This document shows, piece by piece, positions 3,853 through 12,749 of a stretch of DNA of 64,000 nucleotides. Each line of letters begins with the position of its first letter. The stretch's first letter is position 1. Source of the stretch: an uncultured Gammaproteobacteria bacterium (GTDB lineage Bacteria > Pseudomonadota > Gammaproteobacteria > DRJJ01); contig CAMYJU010000001.1 of the NCBI GenBank assembly GCA_947258795.1, positions 186,001 to 250,000 on the forward strand, given 5' to 3'. The notes under the pieces were generated by a model. It did no database searches, was not told the DNA's origin, and worked only from the letters and a program-made list of their open reading frames with translations. Both the position numbers and the translations under genes were made by a program.

Positions 3853-4263
3853 ATGACCTATACCAATCTGTATCTAAACATTATGCAAGGGCATGATGAT
3901 GCGGTCATGACCAGCATTAGTCAACGACAGGACATCAATACACCCTGTGGTACATTTGACAACACACCCCTGCATATCGCTGCAGAAAAAGGACTTTCAG
4001 AAATTGTTAGATGCCTGATTGAAGAAGGTGTGGATATAAATGCCCAGAACAAGTTTGGTGAAACCCCGTTACATTTGACTGTAATGCTTGGACATCATGA
4101 TATAGCCGAATTGCTTCTGGGGAATCATGCAGATGCAAGTATTGAAAACTGCAATGGTGAAACGGCTTTTGATCAGGCAATCATTCTGGAGCCAGGAGGC
4201 CGAGAGGCCTATCGCGATCTGGAGTCACAATATAGCCATGCGCATCACCAGGATTCCACCTAA
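3853..4263 (+). CDS. Ankyrin repeat protein
   Basis: This is a 136-residue protein with about three ankyrin repeats. The clear ones are DNTPLHIAAEKGLSEIVRCL (about residues 38-57) and FGETPLHLTVMLGHHDIAEL (about 70-90), with a degenerate third beginning NGETAFDQA. Ankyrin repeats bind partner proteins; the partner is unknown. AAGGAG precedes the ATG by about 10 bases. There is no signal peptide, so it should be cytosolic. Its stop codon overlaps the stop of the convergent rtcB gene by 4 bases. It appears to be transcribed alone. Confidence 0.85.
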   Translation: MTYTNLYLNIMQGHDDAVMTSISQRQDINTPCGTFDNTPLHIAAEKGLSEIVRCLIEEGVDINAQNKFGETPLHLTVMLGHHDIAELLLGNHADASIENCNGETAFDQAIILEPGGREAYRDLESQYSHAHHQDST

Positions 4264-5690
4264 CCCTTGATGCACACCAGCGGCTCCAGCCGTACCACTT
4301 TACGTGCGAGACCGGAAAGGTCAGCTGCATCAACGACCGCAGTAACATCCTTGTAGGCGCCTGGTGCCTCTTCGGCAACCCCACGCATACTCGGGCTGCG
4401 GATGATAATGCCGCGTTCAGCCAGTTGATCAACCAGCGATCTGCCATTCCATTGTCGTTTTGCCTTGTTGCGGCTCATTGCACGCCCGGCACCATGGCAG
4501 GCAGAGCTGATTGATTTCTGTTCACTTTCTTCAGTACCGGTCAGAATGTAAGAGGCGGTACCCATCGAGCCACCAATAATGACCGGTTGACCAACCGCTC
4601 TGAGGTCTTCAGGTATATCGCTATGGCCCGGTCCAAACGCCCGGGTGGCGCCTTTACGGTGTACGAACAGACGTTGTGATTTACCATCTACTTCGTGTGT
4701 TTCTTCCTTGCAGGTATTATGTGATACGTCGTATAGCAGGCTCAGCTCTGCATCTGGCAGGACCCGGGAAAACGCCTGGCGGGTCAGGTGAGTGATAACC
4801 TGCCGGTTAGCCAGGGCGCAATTAATCCCGGCGCGCATCGCGCCAAGATAATTCTGACCGATACTGGACTTGAGCGGAGCGCAGGCCAGCTCCCGGTCTG
4901 GTAAAGAAATATGGTGCTGTGATGCGCTTATGGCCATGGACTTCAGGTATTCGGTGCCGATCTGGTGACCCAGGCCCCGTGATCCGCAATGGATACTGAT
5001 CACGATATCGTCCTTATTCAATGCGAAGGCCTGTGCTGTTGTACGATCATAGATATCCGTGACGACCTGGACTTCCAGATAGTGGTTACCGGAACCGAGG
5101 GTACCCATTTCATCCTGTTGTCTTTTTTTGGCGTGATCCGAGACCTTTGTCGGGTCTGCGCCTGGCATACAGCCATGCTCCTCGATGCGCTGCAGATCTG
5201 ATTCCATACCATAACCCTGGCTTACTGCCCAGCGTGCACCTTCACGCAACATGTTATTCATTTGTTTGTTGTTCAGATGAATATCGCCAACGCTACCGAG
5301 ACCGGCGGGGATGTCCCGGTATAGCTGGTTAGCAAGTTCGGATTTGACCTGTACTACATCATAACGGCTCAGTCCGGTATGCAGGGTACGAACACCACAG
5401 GAAATATCAAAACCGACACCACCGGCCGAGATCACGCCACCTTGTTCTGCATCGAACGCTGCGACGCCGCCGATAGGGAAGCCGTAACCCCAGTGTGCAT
5501 CCGGCATCGCATAGGCAGCCTTGACAATACCCGGCAGGGTGGCGACATTGGTAATTTGTTCATAGACCTTCAGATCCATCTGGCGCATTAGTTCTTCATC
5601 AGCGTAAATGATAGCCGGGACACGCATGTTGCCATGTGGCTCGACGCGCCAGGTGTATTCATTATCGCGTATGAACAGTTGCAGGTCCAT
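4260..5690 (-). CDS. rtcB: RNA ligase RtcB
   Basis: This 476-residue protein matches the long form of RtcB, the GTP- and Mn-dependent ligase that joins 2',3'-cyclic phosphate (or 3'-phosphate) and 5'-OH RNA ends in tRNA repair or splicing. The metal site motif GGVGFDISCGVR is present with the conserved Cys at residue 98. HCGSRGLGHQ supplies metal-binding histidines, and SSACHGAGRAMSR carries the histidine that takes up GMP. The ATG lies two bases after the stop of the archease gene, the protein that activates RtcB turnover, so the pair forms an operon. All key motifs look intact. Confidence 0.95.
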   Translation of the reverse strand: MDLQLFIRDNEYTWRVEPHGNMRVPAIIYADEELMRQMDLKVYEQITNVATLPGIVKAAYAMPDAHWGYGFPIGGVAAFDAEQGGVISAGGVGFDISCGVRTLHTGLSRYDVVQVKSELANQLYRDIPAGLGSVGDIHLNNKQMNNMLREGARWAVSQGYGMESDLQRIEEHGCMPGADPTKVSDHAKKRQQDEMGTLGSGNHYLEVQVVTDIYDRTTAQAFALNKDDIVISIHCGSRGLGHQIGTEYLKSMAISASQHHISLPDRELACAPLKSSIGQNYLGAMRAGINCALANRQVITHLTRQAFSRVLPDAELSLLYDVSHNTCKEETHEVDGKSQRLFVHRKGATRAFGPGHSDIPEDLRAVGQPVIIGGSMGTASYILTGTEESEQKSISSACHGAGRAMSRNKAKRQWNGRSLVDQLAERGIIIRSPSMRGVAEEAPGAYKDVTAVVDAADLSGLARKVVRLEPLVCIKG

Positions 5691-5692
5691 GG

Positions 5693-6115
5693 TCAGACAT
5701 CTATCACGGTTTTGGCATGCCAGGTACCATCCTCATCCTGGTATACCTTCAGTGAAGTATAGGTCGCGCCCTTGATTTCCACTACCGGTTGATGTCTGCT
5801 GATGTCGATTTTTTCGCCCCAGGCGCAGGCGTGCAGTTCACCGGTGTTGATACGGATCTCAAACCGACTGAACAGATATTTCCGGCTCGACATTTCATAG
5901 ATTAGTGCATTGAGCCAGTCGACAAACAACAGTTCATGATCAGGCGCTTCACAGTTGATCTCTATTTTGATTTGGGGGGTGATATGTTTCGGTTCTGTGA
6001 TTACTGCGGCCATGGCTATTGCGGCCTGGATAAAGGCCTCTTCAATGGTATTGCCGATACCATGTACGCCGATATCTGCCTCGTGTTCGAAGTGTTCCCA
6101 ATGCGGCGTGATCAT
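5693..6115 (-). CDS. Archease, activator of RtcB
   Basis: This is 140 residues from the ATG at 6115. The reading frame extends upstream to 6211, but that start would overlap the CBS gene and exceed the family's usual length of about 140. Archease speeds guanylylation and turnover of RtcB. The N-terminal [18 protein letters not shown] motif and the central [20 protein letters not shown], typical of the family, are both clear. The gene ends two bases before rtcB. The acidic metal-binding residues (Asp in HEADIG and the C-terminal Asp in VIDV) are present. Confidence 0.92.
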
Positions 6116-6137
6116 GGGTGAATGTGCTAATCCGGAA

Positions 6138-6587
6138 TTATGGGTGGCGCTGCGCTTCATGTACGATCTCGCGCGTATTGATCGAGACCAGGTCATTGGT
6201 GGCTTCGGCAATCAGTTCGATTACATCGTCTTCACTGAGTATGCCTTTCAGGGAGCCTGCACTATCAACCACCGGGATTCTGCGTATGCTGTGTTTGCGC
6301 ATGATGTGCAGCGTGTCCAGCAGGTTTTCGTTCTCGGTGACGATAACGAGCTCTGAACTCATGATATCCCTGATACTGACAGTTTCAGGCGAAACTTCCT
6401 GTGCCAGTACTTCCACGACCAGGTCACGATCTGTCAGTATACCTATCGGAATATTATTTTCGTCGCCTTTCTCAACCACGACCAAATCGCCGACGTGATA
6501 TTTGCGCATCAATCTGGCGGCTTCGATCACATTAGTATCTGGCCCGGTAATAATGACTTCACGATTACAGTAAGCGCCTGCTGTCAT
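6138..6587 (-). CDS. CBS-domain pair protein
   Basis: This is a 149-residue protein made of two CBS motifs. The first (about residues 10-65) includes [20 protein letters not shown] and [11 protein letters not shown]. The second (about 75-130) includes [20 protein letters not shown] and [17 protein letters not shown]. Stand-alone CBS pairs bind adenine nucleotides and act as energy sensors or modulators of partner proteins. It lies 22 bases upstream of archease on the same strand, so it may belong to the archease-rtcB transcript. The ligand and partner cannot be told from sequence. Confidence 0.9.
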
Positions 6588-6635
6588 GATTCATTGCCTC
6601 CATATACACAGGTCATATATCAAGTATGGCACAGA

Positions 6636-7079
6636 TTATCCTGGCAGGGCTCTGGGTAGGTGCTCACGAATTTCATCTGCGCCATGCTTGACCAGGTTTT
6701 TATCCAGGGAGAGCGTGATTGCTTTTGAAATCTCACCAGTGAGCTTATCACGCAGTAAACCGAGAAACGATGGCGCTGCAATGACAATCAGGTGCTGGAA
6801 TTCCTGTCTGTTCCAGGCATCATTCAGGTAATCTGTTATCTCGCGGGCGAAGTTCACAGCCTCCGTGGTTTTAGAATCTGTCTCTCCACTGACACCATGA
6901 TGGCTACCGCCAGCCCCACCGGCCTGACTGCCAGGCAGGTCGGATGTCAGTTTCTGTTCATGAAACCTGGCTTCAGGATGTGTTAGATCCTTGACTTCAG
7001 CGAGCGGAGAGGTGGCTTTTCCCGCAGCGAAAATTCGTGCGCGACTGCTGTCGGCTACCAGTATCCAGGAATGTTGCAT
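6636..7079 (-). CDS. Host-attachment family protein (PF10116 type)
   Basis: This 147-residue protein begins WILVADSSRARIFAAGK and contains FAREITDYLNDAWNRQEFQHLIVIAAPSFLG, the hallmarks of the family named 'protein required for attachment to host cells'. The family takes its name from an Agrobacterium locus, but most members sit in free-living bacteria and resemble eRF1/Pelota-like folds; their real role is open. A Gly/His-rich loop (GGAGGSHHGVSG) lies in the middle. It is a single gene, 48 bases upstream of the CBS gene. Confidence 0.85.
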   Translation of the reverse strand: MQHSWILVADSSRARIFAAGKATSPLAEVKDLTHPEARFHEQKLTSDLPGSQAGGAGGSHHGVSGETDSKTTEAVNFAREITDYLNDAWNRQEFQHLIVIAAPSFLGLLRDKLTGEISKAITLSLDKNLVKHGADEIREHLPRALPG

Positions 7080-7237
7080 GGTCGGTCTCCTGTAATGCTA
7101 TATCAACAATCTAGCAAAAACCCGGAATTGCACCATGATATACATCAAACTTGTTTCCTGGAGCTGAAAATCTTCCGTTCTGAGTGGATTCAACTAGACT
7201 AAAAGATAGTAGAACAAGGTGTGTCAGGGAGTTGGTC

Positions 7238-7714
7238 ATGGCGCTTTCGATCCATTCAGATGCCTTCTCATCAGGTAATGCTATACCAGCCCGTTTTACC
7301 TGCGATGATCAAGATATTTCACCACAAATAATGTGGCAGGATGTGCCGGCCGGGGCCAAGAGTCTGGTACTGATTGTCGATGATCCGGATGCGCCGGATC
7401 CGGCTGCACCAAAAATGACCTGGGTGCATTGGTTGTTGTACAACATCCCTGTCTCTGCCACAAGTCTGCCGGAAGGCGTGCAGGATGAAGAACTGCCGGC
7501 AGGGACCCTGCTGGGGCAGAATGACTGGAAGCGCACTGGTTATGGCGGACCATGCCCACCGATCGGCAGGCATCGCTATTTCTTTAAATTCTATGCGCTG
7601 GATAGGGTACTGGAAGACTTGCATACGCCAGCAAAAGCAAAGCTGGAGGCAGCGATGCAGGGACATATATTGGAGAAGGCAGAGCTGATTGGTCGCTATC
7701 AGCGAGGGTCGTGA
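7238..7714 (+). CDS. YbhB/YbcL-type PEBP family protein
   Basis: This is 158 residues from the ATG at 7238, preceded by CAGGGAG; an in-frame ATG at 7184 lacks such a site and would add an atypical N-terminus. The protein shows the phosphatidylethanolamine-binding-protein fold signature: FTCDDQDISPQIMW, then VLIVDDPDAPDP with MTWVHWLLYNIP, and GYGGPCPPIGRHRYFFKFYA. Bacterial members are cytosolic or periplasmic and of unclear function, related to eukaryotic Raf kinase inhibitor proteins. No signal peptide is seen, so cytosolic. Likely monocistronic. Confidence 0.9.
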   Translation: MALSIHSDAFSSGNAIPARFTCDDQDISPQIMWQDVPAGAKSLVLIVDDPDAPDPAAPKMTWVHWLLYNIPVSATSLPEGVQDEELPAGTLLGQNDWKRTGYGGPCPPIGRHRYFFKFYALDRVLEDLHTPAKAKLEAAMQGHILEKAELIGRYQRGS

Positions 7715-7861
7715 TATTCAACCTTTGGGGCGTGTTAATTCCAACCTTTGATACTGTCACTGGGTGATGGATTGTCGGGCAATTTTACAGTTTGGCCACT
7801 AGCCAGAAGTAACTGAGAAGAGCCTGTATTCCTGCCGACAAAAGTGTGCCGCATACGCTAG

Positions 7862-8317
7862 TGAGTATGTGTGGCAGGGACGGTCGCGTTGTACCGTAAA
7901 TGTTGTAAAATTCGCTGGCATTGGCGCACACTCAATTCTACATCATGGCAGTGCACCAGATAGGTTTGCAGCAGCTTTCCGCCCCAGGTGCTTTGGCGGT
8001 ACCTCAACTCACAGGGTGCTTTCAGTATATCGATTTGTAGCTGTTTGAGCTGATCGTCGCGCGGTCGGGTGGGGCGCCCTGTTTTTTGTTCATCCCTGAG
8101 TCCTTCGATACCAAAATGTCAGAAAGTAGTGAGCCCAACGCTACAAAGTGCGGGGATGTTCGTCAAACCATTCTGCAACCTGAGAACAACTAAAGCCGCG
8201 TCCTAGCAAAAGTACGCAGTGGATACGGTGTGGAAAGCGGAGCTCATGGTTATGAGTGATTTCATTTTTAATAACTGACTGAAGTTCTGTGCTATTTGGG
8301 ATTACCAGTTTTCGCAT
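7862..8317 (-). pseudogene. IS630-family transposase remnant (N-terminal HTH part)
   Basis: The minus strand reads RFPHRIHCVLLLGRGFSCSQVAEWFDEHPRTL, a winged-helix N-terminus like that of IS630-type transposases, then hits an in-frame TAG near 8138. The similarity resumes one frame away near 8112 as FGIEGLRDEQKTGRPTR and continues through LKAPCELRYRQSTWGGKLLQ and VELSVRQCQRILQHLRYNA. The gene thus carries a stop and a frameshift, and the whole DDE catalytic half is missing. No terminal inverted repeats were recognised, so the limits given cover the recognisable coding remnant only. The bases at 7715-7861 hold nothing I can identify. Confidence 0.75.
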
Positions 8318-8514
8318 GGTCTGAGTCCCTTCATTGTCGAGAAATAAAATAGATGTCGTCGCTTGCATCATGAAGTTTAACTCAATATGAGTAGAACATG
8401 CGTAATCAATTTTGTCGTCCCCTAAGCGAAGGTAACGTTGGTATGCTGTTTGCTTGTTATTCAGTGATAATTATGATGAGTTGCTTATTATCATCAACCA
8501 GGAGGGTTGTAGCT

Positions 8515-9909
8515 ATGATTAAATTACACAGCACAAAAGTCAAAGCGTTGGCTTTTACAGCACTTTTATCTTTCTTGTTAACATTGAATATTCAGCCAGT
8601 ATATGCAGAAAAGCCTACACTCACTACACTTATGGAACGGATCTCTGCTTTACAGAACAAAGTAGAGTCTCTTGAATCTGAGCTGGCTGCTGTAAAAAGC
8701 AATTCTGTCCTTGGTCTGGACGGCTTGATCAGCCTGGATTACAGCAGCGGGTACCCAACGATCTTATTGGAGGGTATCAATTTACAAATCACCAATGGCG
8801 ATAGTACTTATTCCAGTAACGGCCTTGGTAATCTGATTCTTGGATTTAATAAATCTGGCGAGACTGCTGGTCGAGTCGATGTATGTTCCGACGGGCAGTA
8901 TCAGAACGGAACGGATTGTATCGGAGCAGGCGAGATTTGGGCTAAAGACCATAAATCCGGCTCCCATTACCTGATTATCGGTGATTACAACAACTACTCG
9001 AAAGCGGTGGGAATTGTCGCGGGTGATAACAACACCAGCAATAGCCTGGGTTCCATGGTGCTTGGTGGAGGAGGTACTGCTCAGGCGAATATTGCCAGTG
9101 GTCTGGGTGCCGTAATCGTAGGCGGTGGGAATAACCGCGCCAGCGGGCGAGGCACTACGATAATGGGTGGATTTAACAATACGGCAAGCGGTGTTGGTGC
9201 CAACCTGGTCGGTAGCGTTGAAAGCATCGCTAGCGGCAGATTTGCCAGTGTGAGCGGTGGCTTTCAAAACATAGCAAGTGGTGAAGTTTCCAGCGTGAGT
9301 GGTGGGAGCGGTAATCAGGCCAGCGGGCAGTACGCCAGCATTAGTGGTGGCAGTGATAGTCTTGCATCCGGTTATGGTGCAAGTGTCAGCGGTGGTTTTT
9401 ATAATTTCGCCCAAGCTAAACATGCCAGTGCGAGTGGTGGATCCGGTAATGCCGTGAACGGCGAGAATGCCAGTGCGAGTGGGGGTTTTGCAAATTTGTT
9501 ATATGGTGAATTGAGTAGCGTTTGTGGTGGTACATCTCATCAGATTGACAGTTATGCAGGTACGATTAGCGGTGGTCGTGGAAATTATGTGTCCGGTGAT
9601 TATGGCAGCGTGAGCGGTGGTCTTGAAAATCGTGCAGTCGGTGGAAACGCCAGTGTGAGTGGCGGTCATGAAAACTATGCTAGCGGTGTTGATTCCAGTG
9701 TAAGTGGTGGTTACCTTAATAATGCAAAGGGTCTCGCTGCCAGCGTGAGTGGTGGAGAGGGTAATTTGGCAGAGGGTACGTTTGCCAGCGTGAGTGGTGG
9801 CGGTGGCAATAGTGCAGAGGGTCTTAACGCCAGCGTGAGTGGCGGGGAAAATCGTTCGGCAACAGGTGTTTTTGACTGGGCTGCAGGTAGTTTGTTCGAA
9901 GACTTCTAG
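8515..9909 (+). CDS. Secreted protein with about 17 YadA-head-like 15-residue beta-roll repeats
   Basis: This is 464 residues from the ATG at 8515, chosen because AGGAGG ends 8 bases upstream and a signal peptide follows at once (hydrophobic ALAFTALLSFLLTLNI, cleavage near VYA-EK). A short coiled coil (about residues 32-58, LMERISALQNKVESLESELA) could trimerise. From about residue 195 on, the protein consists of tandem units of 15 residues with the pattern SVSGGxxNxASGxxA, the repeat of trimeric autotransporter heads. No C-terminal beta-barrel anchor exists; the protein ends SLFEDF. It may be released, or held by a partner. Its only neighbours are the IS remnant upstream and a small-RNA candidate downstream. 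Confidence 0.8.
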   Translation: MIKLHSTKVKALAFTALLSFLLTLNIQPVYAEKPTLTTLMERISALQNKVESLESELAAVKSNSVLGLDGLISLDYSSGYPTILLEGINLQITNGDSTYSSNGLGNLILGFNKSGETAGRVDVCSDGQYQNGTDCIGAGEIWAKDHKSGSHYLIIGDYNNYSKAVGIVAGDNNTSNSLGSMVLGGGGTAQANIASGLGAVIVGGGNNRASGRGTTIMGGFNNTASGVGANLVGSVESIASGRFASVSGGFQNIASGEVSSVSGGSGNQASGQYASISGGSDSLASGYGASVSGGFYNFAQAKHASASGGSGNAVNGENASASGGFANLLYGELSSVCGGTSHQIDSYAGTISGGRGNYVSGDYGSVSGGLENRAVGGNASVSGGHENYASGVDSSVSGGYLNNAKGLAASVSGGEGNLAEGTFASVSGGGGNSAEGLNASVSGGENRSATGVFDWAAGSLFEDF

Positions 9910-9961
9910 ACACCATTGCAAAAAACCCGGTGACTTAAGTGTTCAATAACTTAATTTTATG

Positions 9962-9988
9962 GGAGGATCTGGTTGATTCAGATCCTCC
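9962..9988 (+). terminator. Hairpin after the beta-roll gene
   Basis: A perfect 10 bp stem (GGAGGATCTG with CAGATCCTCC) around a 7-base loop lies 53 bases after the stop. The T-tail is weak, so it may act as an mRNA end-stabiliser rather than a strong intrinsic terminator. Confidence 0.6.
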
Positions 9989-10063
9989 TGACTTGTGTTG
10001 CGGGTAATCTGGGTGGTTGTGTTGAATTATTGTGAATAAGTTAACGTTCAGTAAACGACAATA

Positions 10064-10077
10064 TTGATCTATATCAA
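10064..10077 (+). promoter_or_regulatory. FNR/ANR-type operator
   Basis: TTGATCTATATCAA is an exact match to the FNR/ANR consensus TTGAT-N4-ATCAA. Its centre lies about 52 bases upstream of the start predicted for the promoter at 10088-10116, a place compatible with activation by an oxygen-sensing FNR-family regulator. Confidence 0.65.
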
Positions 10078-10087
10078 CAATACTTCA

Positions 10088-10116
10088 TTGACATAAAACT
10101 TGCGCCTATCTATATA
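10088..10116 (+). promoter_or_regulatory. Sigma-70 promoter for the small-RNA candidate
   Basis: A perfect -35 box TTGACA (10088-10093) and a -10-like TATATA (10111-10116) are spaced by 17 bases. Transcription should start near 10123. No coding gene begins close downstream; the next strong signal is a terminator at 10165-10206. Confidence 0.65.
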
Positions 10117-10122
10117 CAAATA

Positions 10123-10206
10123 AAGACGGCGAAGGATGGCTGCAATGAATTCAATTTCTTTTATAAAGCCATGGGTATATGTCTACATATAGTACATGGC
10201 TTTTTT
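10123..10206 (+). ncRNA. Candidate small RNA of about 84 nt under FNR-type control
   Basis: The transcript from the predicted start would end at a textbook intrinsic terminator. This is a 9 bp stem, AAAGCCATG (10165-10173) with CATGGCTTT (10195-10203), an inner 6 bp stem (TATATG with CATATA) and a run of six T at 10201-10206. The layout of FNR site, promoter, short transcript and terminator resembles the FNR-activated small RNA FnrS of enterobacteria, although no sequence similarity is claimed. A 15-codon reading frame (10145-10192, MNSISFIKPWVYVYI) preceded by GAAGG lies inside, so the RNA might instead, or also, encode a micropeptide. Confidence 0.5.
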
Positions 10207-10516
10207 CATTTTGGACTCCTTCACTTCGGGTTTTAACGCTTAACTATATTCATTTTGAGATTTAACCGGGGATGTAGTGCTAATCCTGGTCTTTAACAGG
10301 CATATTAATACAAAGGATGTTGGCCTTCAGTAACAACGCATAACGAAATAATTCACAATGGCATATATTGCGTAGCGTCATAACTTAAGGCGAGAACGTC
10401 TCAAACAGGGAAAGATACTACTTAATTACGAAAATTCACCTGACCGGTTTTACTGTTTCAGTAGCTCATTATATGACTTGCAAATATCTATTTACCAGGA
10501 GGAATCAATATAGCGA
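10207..10516. other. Intergenic region without recognised features
   Basis: These 310 bases lie between the small-RNA terminator and the short reading frame ahead of the 716-residue protein. I see no gene. The promoter for the downstream gene should lie here but no convincing box stands out. Confidence 0.4.
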
Positions 10517-10598: not shown

Positions 10599-12749
10599 AT
10601 GAAAAAAGATACCTCACAAACACCACCTAAAATTGCCAAGGATCGCAGTCAGTTCCGCCAGTTGATTGCCGCTAATCCCAGTCATTTCTTCGATGTGAAA
10701 AAGGCGGCACCGAAGCTTGGTGGACCGCCGAGTGGCAATACCACCTATGAGGAATTAATGTGTGTCAGTTATCAGCCATCTCTTAAGCTGCTGCATGCAA
10801 CTGTACATGTCAAACTTGCCAACGGTTTCATGGGTGAACTATGCGGTGATGGTTCGATGGAGTATGTGCAGTTCTATATCGACTATGGAGAAGGAGTAGG
10901 CTGGGAGGACATCGGTTATGCCGCTTTTAATACGCACGATATCCCGAACTTCACCGACTGTGAAGACGGGCCGGACAAGCCATTAAGTTACGTGGTTACC
11001 TTGCCTCTGGATCCAGACACCAATTGTTGTAACAAACCGGTACTACCAAAAATTCGTGCAATACTTTCCTGGGAATCCCCGCCAACGGGTCCCACTGATC
11101 CAATCGTATGGGGTAATGGCCTGGACCGGCATATACAAATAAAGCCCTACGGTTTTTGTATGAACGCTTTCCTCGATTTTATGTTCAAGGATACGAATGA
11201 AGAATGGATAATGCCAACTTCCCTGAAATACCTGGAGGCCAAGAAAATCGAACTGCCACCACCACCTGAACTTGAACTGAAGGACATGCTTCAACTCTAT
11301 GGTTCCCCAAAGAAAGGAAAGGCGGCAGCGGCGAGTATGATTGTCGAACCACACCGTTTCGGATTCAAGAACATGATGTCAGCATTGAACGTTGGCACGC
11401 TTAATCCGGTTCTAATCGAGCAAAAAATTGCCGAATGGGGTAGCCTGAATCTGGACTGGGTAGGTGCCGTCACCGAACTGGAAAAGACCAGTGGTAATAC
11501 CAGTTATGAGGAGCTGGACTGCATCGGTCTTGATCCGAATACCGACCGATTGGTTGCTACCTATCGGGTCAAACGCAGTACCGGTTACTCAGGCGATCTG
11601 TGTTCCAACGGCAGTACCGAGTATGTTGCCTTCTGGGCTGATTGGAACGATACATGTAATTGGACCTACCTGGGTACGGCAGAGGTAGCCGCTTATGACA
11701 TTGACGAAATCCCCGATGACGACTTGCATTACGCGGCGGAACTCAAGGTTGATTTGACTGACTATCTTGAATCATGTGAGGACCCAAAAATTGGCCGTGT
11801 ACGCGCAACGCTGTCCTGGAATACACCCCCTAACCCTGCGAACCCGGATGCTGTCCCATATTGGGGGAATCGCCTTGATGTTCACGTGCATATCAAGCCT
11901 GGTGCAGAGGAAGAGGGGCCGCATCTCAGCATCATTGGTGGTATTGGCGTTCCCTATATTACCACCAACACTACCGGTATGACGGTTACCGGTGCGCGCT
12001 TTGCAATTTCTGGCTCCTTTGCTGATTCATGGCTCCATACGCGTCCGTGTCCATTCGGTGGTCGCATACAGATTAATGGCAAGCCACAGAACGTGGGTGA
12101 CCGTTATCGCATTATGGTGCGTACAGTAGCTGGTGGGTCCGAGCAACCCGTAACGAACAAATTCCTGGTCACAGATCATCTGGGTTTTAACCATTGGATT
12201 CATGCGGATGCCGATCAAGCGTTCACCTTTTTGCATGATGACCAGAACCAGTTTAATGTCCTGGCCTGGTGGACACCGGAAGGCAATGAGTTATGGCAAG
12301 TCCGCCTGCAGCTGATCAATGGTGCGGGTATCGAGGTGGCGTCCTCACCCTGGTATCGCATCCAGATGGATAACACAAAGCCCACGGCTGAGATTACTCT
12401 CGACTCCGGACCATGCCATCAGTTCGTCAAAACTGACCCAGCTCCTGTTGTTACGGGACACTTTGTCGCAAGGGAGCCAGGTGGTCACTTTGGTGCCTTC
12501 GCACTGGATACACTGCCTAATAGTGTATCACCACCAAATCCTTCCACGGCTACACCGACAACGTCCGAGACAGCTGCATCACCCGGTGATAGTTGGTCGC
12601 TGGACACAAAGACCATGGTGCCGTGTGGATATGTGGTTAGAGTGCGTGTTTGGGACCGTTCAATTATTAATAGTCTCCCGGGTTTGGGTTACCACAATAG
12701 AAGTGCCGACGACGTTGGTTTCTGTCTGTTGGCTCCGGAGGAAGAGTAA
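10599..12749 (+). CDS. Large hypothetical protein with a duplicated beta-rich domain
   Basis: This is a 716-residue protein with no signal peptide or membrane segment. Two copies of one domain are evident. Copy A, about residues 45-190, has SGNTTYEELMCV, LCGDGSMEYVQFYIDYGEG and RAILSWESPP. Copy B, about 300-445, has SGNTSYEELDCI, LCSNGSTEYVAFWADWND and RATLSWNTPP. Each ends near WGN-RLD/LDR-HIHIKP. The remaining 270 residues form another beta-rich, His- and Trp-containing region. Conserved cysteines in each copy hint at a metal or disulfide. AAGGAG precedes the start, and a 24-codon frame is packed just upstream. The family is not recognised; an Ig-like or carbohydrate-binding-like fold is only an impression. 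Confidence 0.75.
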   Translation: MKKDTSQTPPKIAKDRSQFRQLIAANPSHFFDVKKAAPKLGGPPSGNTTYEELMCVSYQPSLKLLHATVHVKLANGFMGELCGDGSMEYVQFYIDYGEGVGWEDIGYAAFNTHDIPNFTDCEDGPDKPLSYVVTLPLDPDTNCCNKPVLPKIRAILSWESPPTGPTDPIVWGNGLDRHIQIKPYGFCMNAFLDFMFKDTNEEWIMPTSLKYLEAKKIELPPPPELELKDMLQLYGSPKKGKAAAASMIVEPHRFGFKNMMSALNVGTLNPVLIEQKIAEWGSLNLDWVGAVTELEKTSGNTSYEELDCIGLDPNTDRLVATYRVKRSTGYSGDLCSNGSTEYVAFWADWNDTCNWTYLGTAEVAAYDIDEIPDDDLHYAAELKVDLTDYLESCEDPKIGRVRATLSWNTPPNPANPDAVPYWGNRLDVHVHIKPGAEEEGPHLSIIGGIGVPYITTNTTGMTVTGARFAISGSFADSWLHTRPCPFGGRIQINGKPQNVGDRYRIMVRTVAGGSEQPVTNKFLVTDHLGFNHWIHADADQAFTFLHDDQNQFNVLAWWTPEGNELWQVRLQLINGAGIEVASSPWYRIQMDNTKPTAEITLDSGPCHQFVKTDPAPVVTGHFVAREPGGHFGAFALDTLPNSVSPPNPSTATPTTSETAASPGDSWSLDTKTMVPCGYVVRVRVWDRSIINSLPGLGYHNRSADDVGFCLLAPEEE

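Follow-up and report, generated by a model that had tools for sequence, protein, structure and literature searches.

The window analysed here, a 64-kb stretch of DNA, holds a candidate for an FNR-linked, lineage-restricted small RNA of about 84 nt, and we rate the chances that this reading is correct as about even. The elements on which it is built are a set of sequence features, an enrichment of exact FNR boxes in the genome, the presence of genes for FNR and Hfq, and the strength of an intrinsic terminator. Transcription itself, the start site, the dependence on FNR and its direction, and base-pairing with mRNAs are predicted from these. The features are the following, with positions counted from the first base of the window.

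8398 to 9909: repeat-rich ORF of 503 aa, upstream of the candidate, with many 'ASVSGGxxNxASG' repeats
10064 to 10077, no strand: exact FNR/ANR-type palindrome, TTGATCTATATCAA
10088 to 10093, plus strand: putative -35 element TTGACA, a 6/6 sequence match
10111 to 10116, plus strand: putative -10 element TATATA, a weakly scoring 4/6 match without the final T
10123 to 10206, plus strand: predicted transcript of about 84 nt, its start placed seven bases past the -10 element
10145 to 10192, plus strand: 15-codon frame MNSISFIKPWVYVYI with AAGGA 9 nt upstream, probably no gene
10165 to 10206, plus strand: intrinsic terminator, a AAAGCCATG/CATGGCTTT stem and an inner TATATG/CATATA stem followed by T6
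10599 to 12749, same strand as the terminator: ORF of 716 aa, the next gene downstream

An exact FNR box in a genome that encodes FNR

The exact FNR/ANR box claimed in an earlier note on this DNA is indeed present, as the sole exact match in the window. Throughout the 3.36-Mb genome we counted 16 exact boxes and a single match to the reversed-control pattern, which suggests that boxes of the FNR type are under selection in this organism. Others among these boxes precede genes which, as read from their translations, are typical FNR targets: OmpW/ccoN (L019), a multihaem cytochrome c (L022), mobA (L027) and acetyl-CoA synthetase (L024). A true FNR is encoded (L047), with the N-terminal cysteine cluster CANCSLYELC and a score of 292 bits against NF008365 (cut-off 228), and an Hfq gene is present as well. 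Since further CRP/FNR-family regulators are also encoded, the box may answer to more than FNR alone. Judged by its sequence, the palindrome at 10064-10077 is a credible FNR-type site, beyond what chance would give, and it stands out among the boxes examined in the genome as the sole one with a clean hairpin plus T6 in the next 130 nt or so that does not resemble a terminator belonging to the gene before it.

A strong terminator closes a short predicted transcript

Two further claims, that the region carries a strong intrinsic terminator and no long gene, were borne out. The hairpin occupies 10165-10203 and the T-run 10201-10206, and no ORF of at least 60 aa was found between 9922 and 10598. 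When the 689-nt intergenic region was shuffled with its dinucleotides preserved, a terminator of -15 kcal/mol or better arose in just one of 300 cases. The terminator is strong and exceeds chance; a separate hairpin scan of the whole window was loose and too permissive to serve as a test. The predicted transcript folds with -22.1 kcal/mol (z = -3.0), a value equalled by none of 200 shuffles. An intrinsic terminator closing a short RNA that contains no gene, which characterizes the class of FNR-regulated sRNAs, is thus predicted here. According to the shuffle and reversed-control tests as a whole, box and terminator go beyond chance, the promoter is just suggestive and the peptide frame stays at chance level.

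Promoter and position of the box

The elements of the TTGACA-17-TATATA promoter that had been proposed are in place, with a spacer of 17 nt, but the -10 element is weak and a TTGACA paired with a 4/6 -10 arises in 7.2% of the dinucleotide shuffles of the intergenic region, so that the promoter is only suggestive. A stricter promoter scan omits it because the -10 ends in A. Relative to the predicted start near 10123, the centre of the box lies at about -52.5. Of 23 E. coli promoters that are activated by FNR and have a known start, 19 carry the site at -41.5 +/- 4 and one carries it at -60.5 (PMC3688515); the FNR site of fnrS is located at -41.5 or -42.5 (PMC3032703, PMC3688515). No class II arrangement (-41.5 +/- 4) was found on the plus strand, which has no usable -10 at 18-24 nt past the box. 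At L019 and L022, a TATATT or TATAAT -10 comes 20-22 nt after the box. As the box is situated some 52.5 nt and not 41.5 nt upstream of the predicted start, activation by FNR is not established. An involvement of FNR is plausible from the sequence, and activation of the 10088-10116 promoter by the standard mechanism is unsupported. With a perfect -35 element, an activator may not even be needed.

The intergenic region also contains two copies of ACTTGCNNNTATCTATNTAC, at 10098-10117 and 10476-10495. The first overlaps the putative -10 and the second lies about 100 nt ahead of the 716-aa gene. No match with fewer than two mismatches occurs elsewhere in the genome; the pattern was built from its two copies, and matches of such short length can be chance.

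If the small RNA is made, RNA polymerase would start near 10123 from a promoter of the sigma-70 type, and the intrinsic terminator would end transcription at 10206. At low oxygen, FNR occupying 10064-10077 would alter the output, most likely by activation. The 5' 40 nt, which are mostly unpaired in the predicted fold, would base-pair with mRNAs, and Hfq would possibly bind the U-rich tail. The architecture of an oxygen-responsive RNA or a leader peptide gene, as it had originally been described, is retained here in part: the regulon, FNR, Hfq and the terminator make an FNR-linked short transcript plausible, but the spacing of the box is off and a leader lacks a matching gene downstream.

Unrelated neighbours or a single unit

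Box and terminator could be unrelated neighbours, with 10165-10206 merely ending read-through from the 8398-9909 gene, the box acting elsewhere or nowhere, and no sRNA being made. The 503-aa ORF itself has no Pfam or NCBIfam match, and its repeats are reminiscent of the head region in YadA-like trimeric adhesins. Downstream of it, at 9960-9990, is a GC-rich hairpin with perfect arms of 10 bp. As this hairpin has no clean T-run, termination there may be poor and the upstream transcript may run on. This explanation also draws on the promoter pair, which is found in 7% of shuffles, and on a box spacing that is wrong for class II activation. Against it, the gene-free gap has the box and a strong terminator at a distance of about 120 nt from each other, and the terminator follows the upstream stop codon by about 255 nt. 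We consider the explanation unlikely.

The short frame and the downstream gene

The 15-codon frame runs from the ATG at 10145 to the TAG at 10190-10192, and an earlier in-frame ATG at 10136 would extend it to 18 aa. A frame with a binding site that ends inside the terminator is present as the earlier note had it, but its occurrence is at chance level: 8.7% of the shuffled intergenic sequences contain a Shine-Dalgarno-like site with a frame of at least 15 codons. Because the stop codon falls within the terminator's 3' arm, the hairpin would be opened by any ribosome that translates the frame. A peptide gene would be oddly designed in this way, yet such opening could matter for read-through. The Shine-Dalgarno sequence of the frame, GAAGGA at 10131-10136, could pair with UCCUUC at 10216-10221 in a read-through RNA; with six bases, this match is likely chance.

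An opening of the hairpin by ribosomes is central to a different explanation, in which the region serves the 716-aa gene starting at 10599 as a 5' leader under FNR control and acts as a transcription attenuator: ribosomes translating the short frame would open the terminator, and polymerase would go on. The shared strand, the entry of the frame into the terminator, the good Shine-Dalgarno-like site and a gap that contains no other gene are consistent with this. However, the terminator and the 716-aa gene lie about 390 nt apart, the full-length leader is no more structured than random sequence (z -0.16), the frame does not exceed chance, and the gene falls into no known family from which a leader signal could be understood. 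The 716-aa protein matched no Pfam or NCBIfam family and had no relative in the GTDB contigs, the genus genome or the plasmids. Internally it is duplicated, with two 'SGNTxYEELxC' units. An attenuator leader is improbable on this evidence.

The box could instead drive a leftward transcript on the minus strand, starting near 10029 and antisense to the region past the upstream gene. Unlike the plus strand, the minus strand offers a hexamer at the 20-nt class II spacing, namely TAACTT (TAxxxT). This hexamer is mediocre and weak, there is no minus-strand gene in that region except a mirror of the repeats, and near the box the minus strand shows no properly stemmed terminator that could set an end, all of which makes such a transcript highly improbable. 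A micropeptide gene encoding MNSISFIKPWVYVYI, or the 18-aa form from the earlier ATG, and expressed without oxygen would profit from the AAGGA 9 nt ahead of its ATG within a short predicted transcript with an FNR box, but comparable frames are as common in shuffles as noted above, the stop codon falls within the terminator stem and a homologue search found nothing for comparison, so that the micropeptide is not supported and has very little chance indeed. Least probable of all is a combined scheme in which FNR would control the sRNA from the non-canonical -52.5 position and the terminator would be opened by ribosomes that enter the short frame. In this isolated gammaproteobacterial lineage, oxygen and translation would then jointly choose between free sRNA and read-through into the 716-aa gene.

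Searches for relatives and targets

The sRNA candidate was searched for relatives at several levels. In Rfam, no family reached its gathering score, relaxed thresholds brought nothing either, and FnrS was absent even at E values up to 10. Within its own genome the region matched itself alone. The one genome of the same genus that was compared (G001) gave no match to the region, to the 716-aa gene or to 4200-8000, and shares just a methyltransferase gene nearby (78% DNA identity), which has a different neighbour there. G001 is 81% complete, fragmented and diverged, and absence from it is therefore weak evidence against conservation. When the FNR boxes of G001 were screened for a similar short transcript, none was convincing. 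A search of other relatives likewise yielded no similar sequence. A class-wide search of 369 genomes returned three short matches, none of them with box and terminator. Scanning the GTDB contigs with the 18-mer GCGAAGGATGGCTGCAAT gave five matches in unrelated contexts, about the chance expectation, and no homologue turned up in plasmids or phages. In a target prediction limited to 56 gene starts, the best duplex was no better than those of shuffled sRNAs (79% of shuffles were as good).

Comparison with known FNR-regulated small RNAs

The candidate resembles enterobacterial FnrS, gonococcal FnrS/AniS and SicX in its predicted architecture and is related to none of them by sequence as far as tested. 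With FnrS of the Enterobacteriaceae it shares a short intergenic transcript (here predicted), an FNR site, an intrinsic terminator, and an organism that possesses both FNR and Hfq. It differs in the position of the FNR site, which is -41.5/-42.5 in FnrS and about -52.5 here, and in having no Rfam match.

In Neisseria, gonococcal FnrS and meningococcal AniS are FNR-activated sRNAs about 110 nt long that carry a Rho-independent terminator at the 3' end and are unrelated in sequence to enterobacterial FnrS (PMC3032703). Length and 3' terminator are similar in our candidate, whereas the neisserial RNAs have a class II FNR site and demonstrated expression, and the candidate is a sequence-only prediction with a different spacing.

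SicX (PA1414) of Pseudomonas aeruginosa has an Anr box upstream, a small transcript, the small frame PA1414 and a Rho-independent terminator (PMC10247376). The same four elements are found here, the transcript again as a prediction. SicX has a known target, ubiUVT, and demonstrated Anr dependence (PMC10247376), and we found no sequence relation between it and the candidate. The region is a candidate for RNA-seq inspection and not a discovery. Should it be transcribed, a carbon-fixing bacterial lineage would gain an oxygen-linked regulatory RNA with no Rfam counterpart, which would represent another case of FNR-controlled sRNAs evolving independently across lineages.
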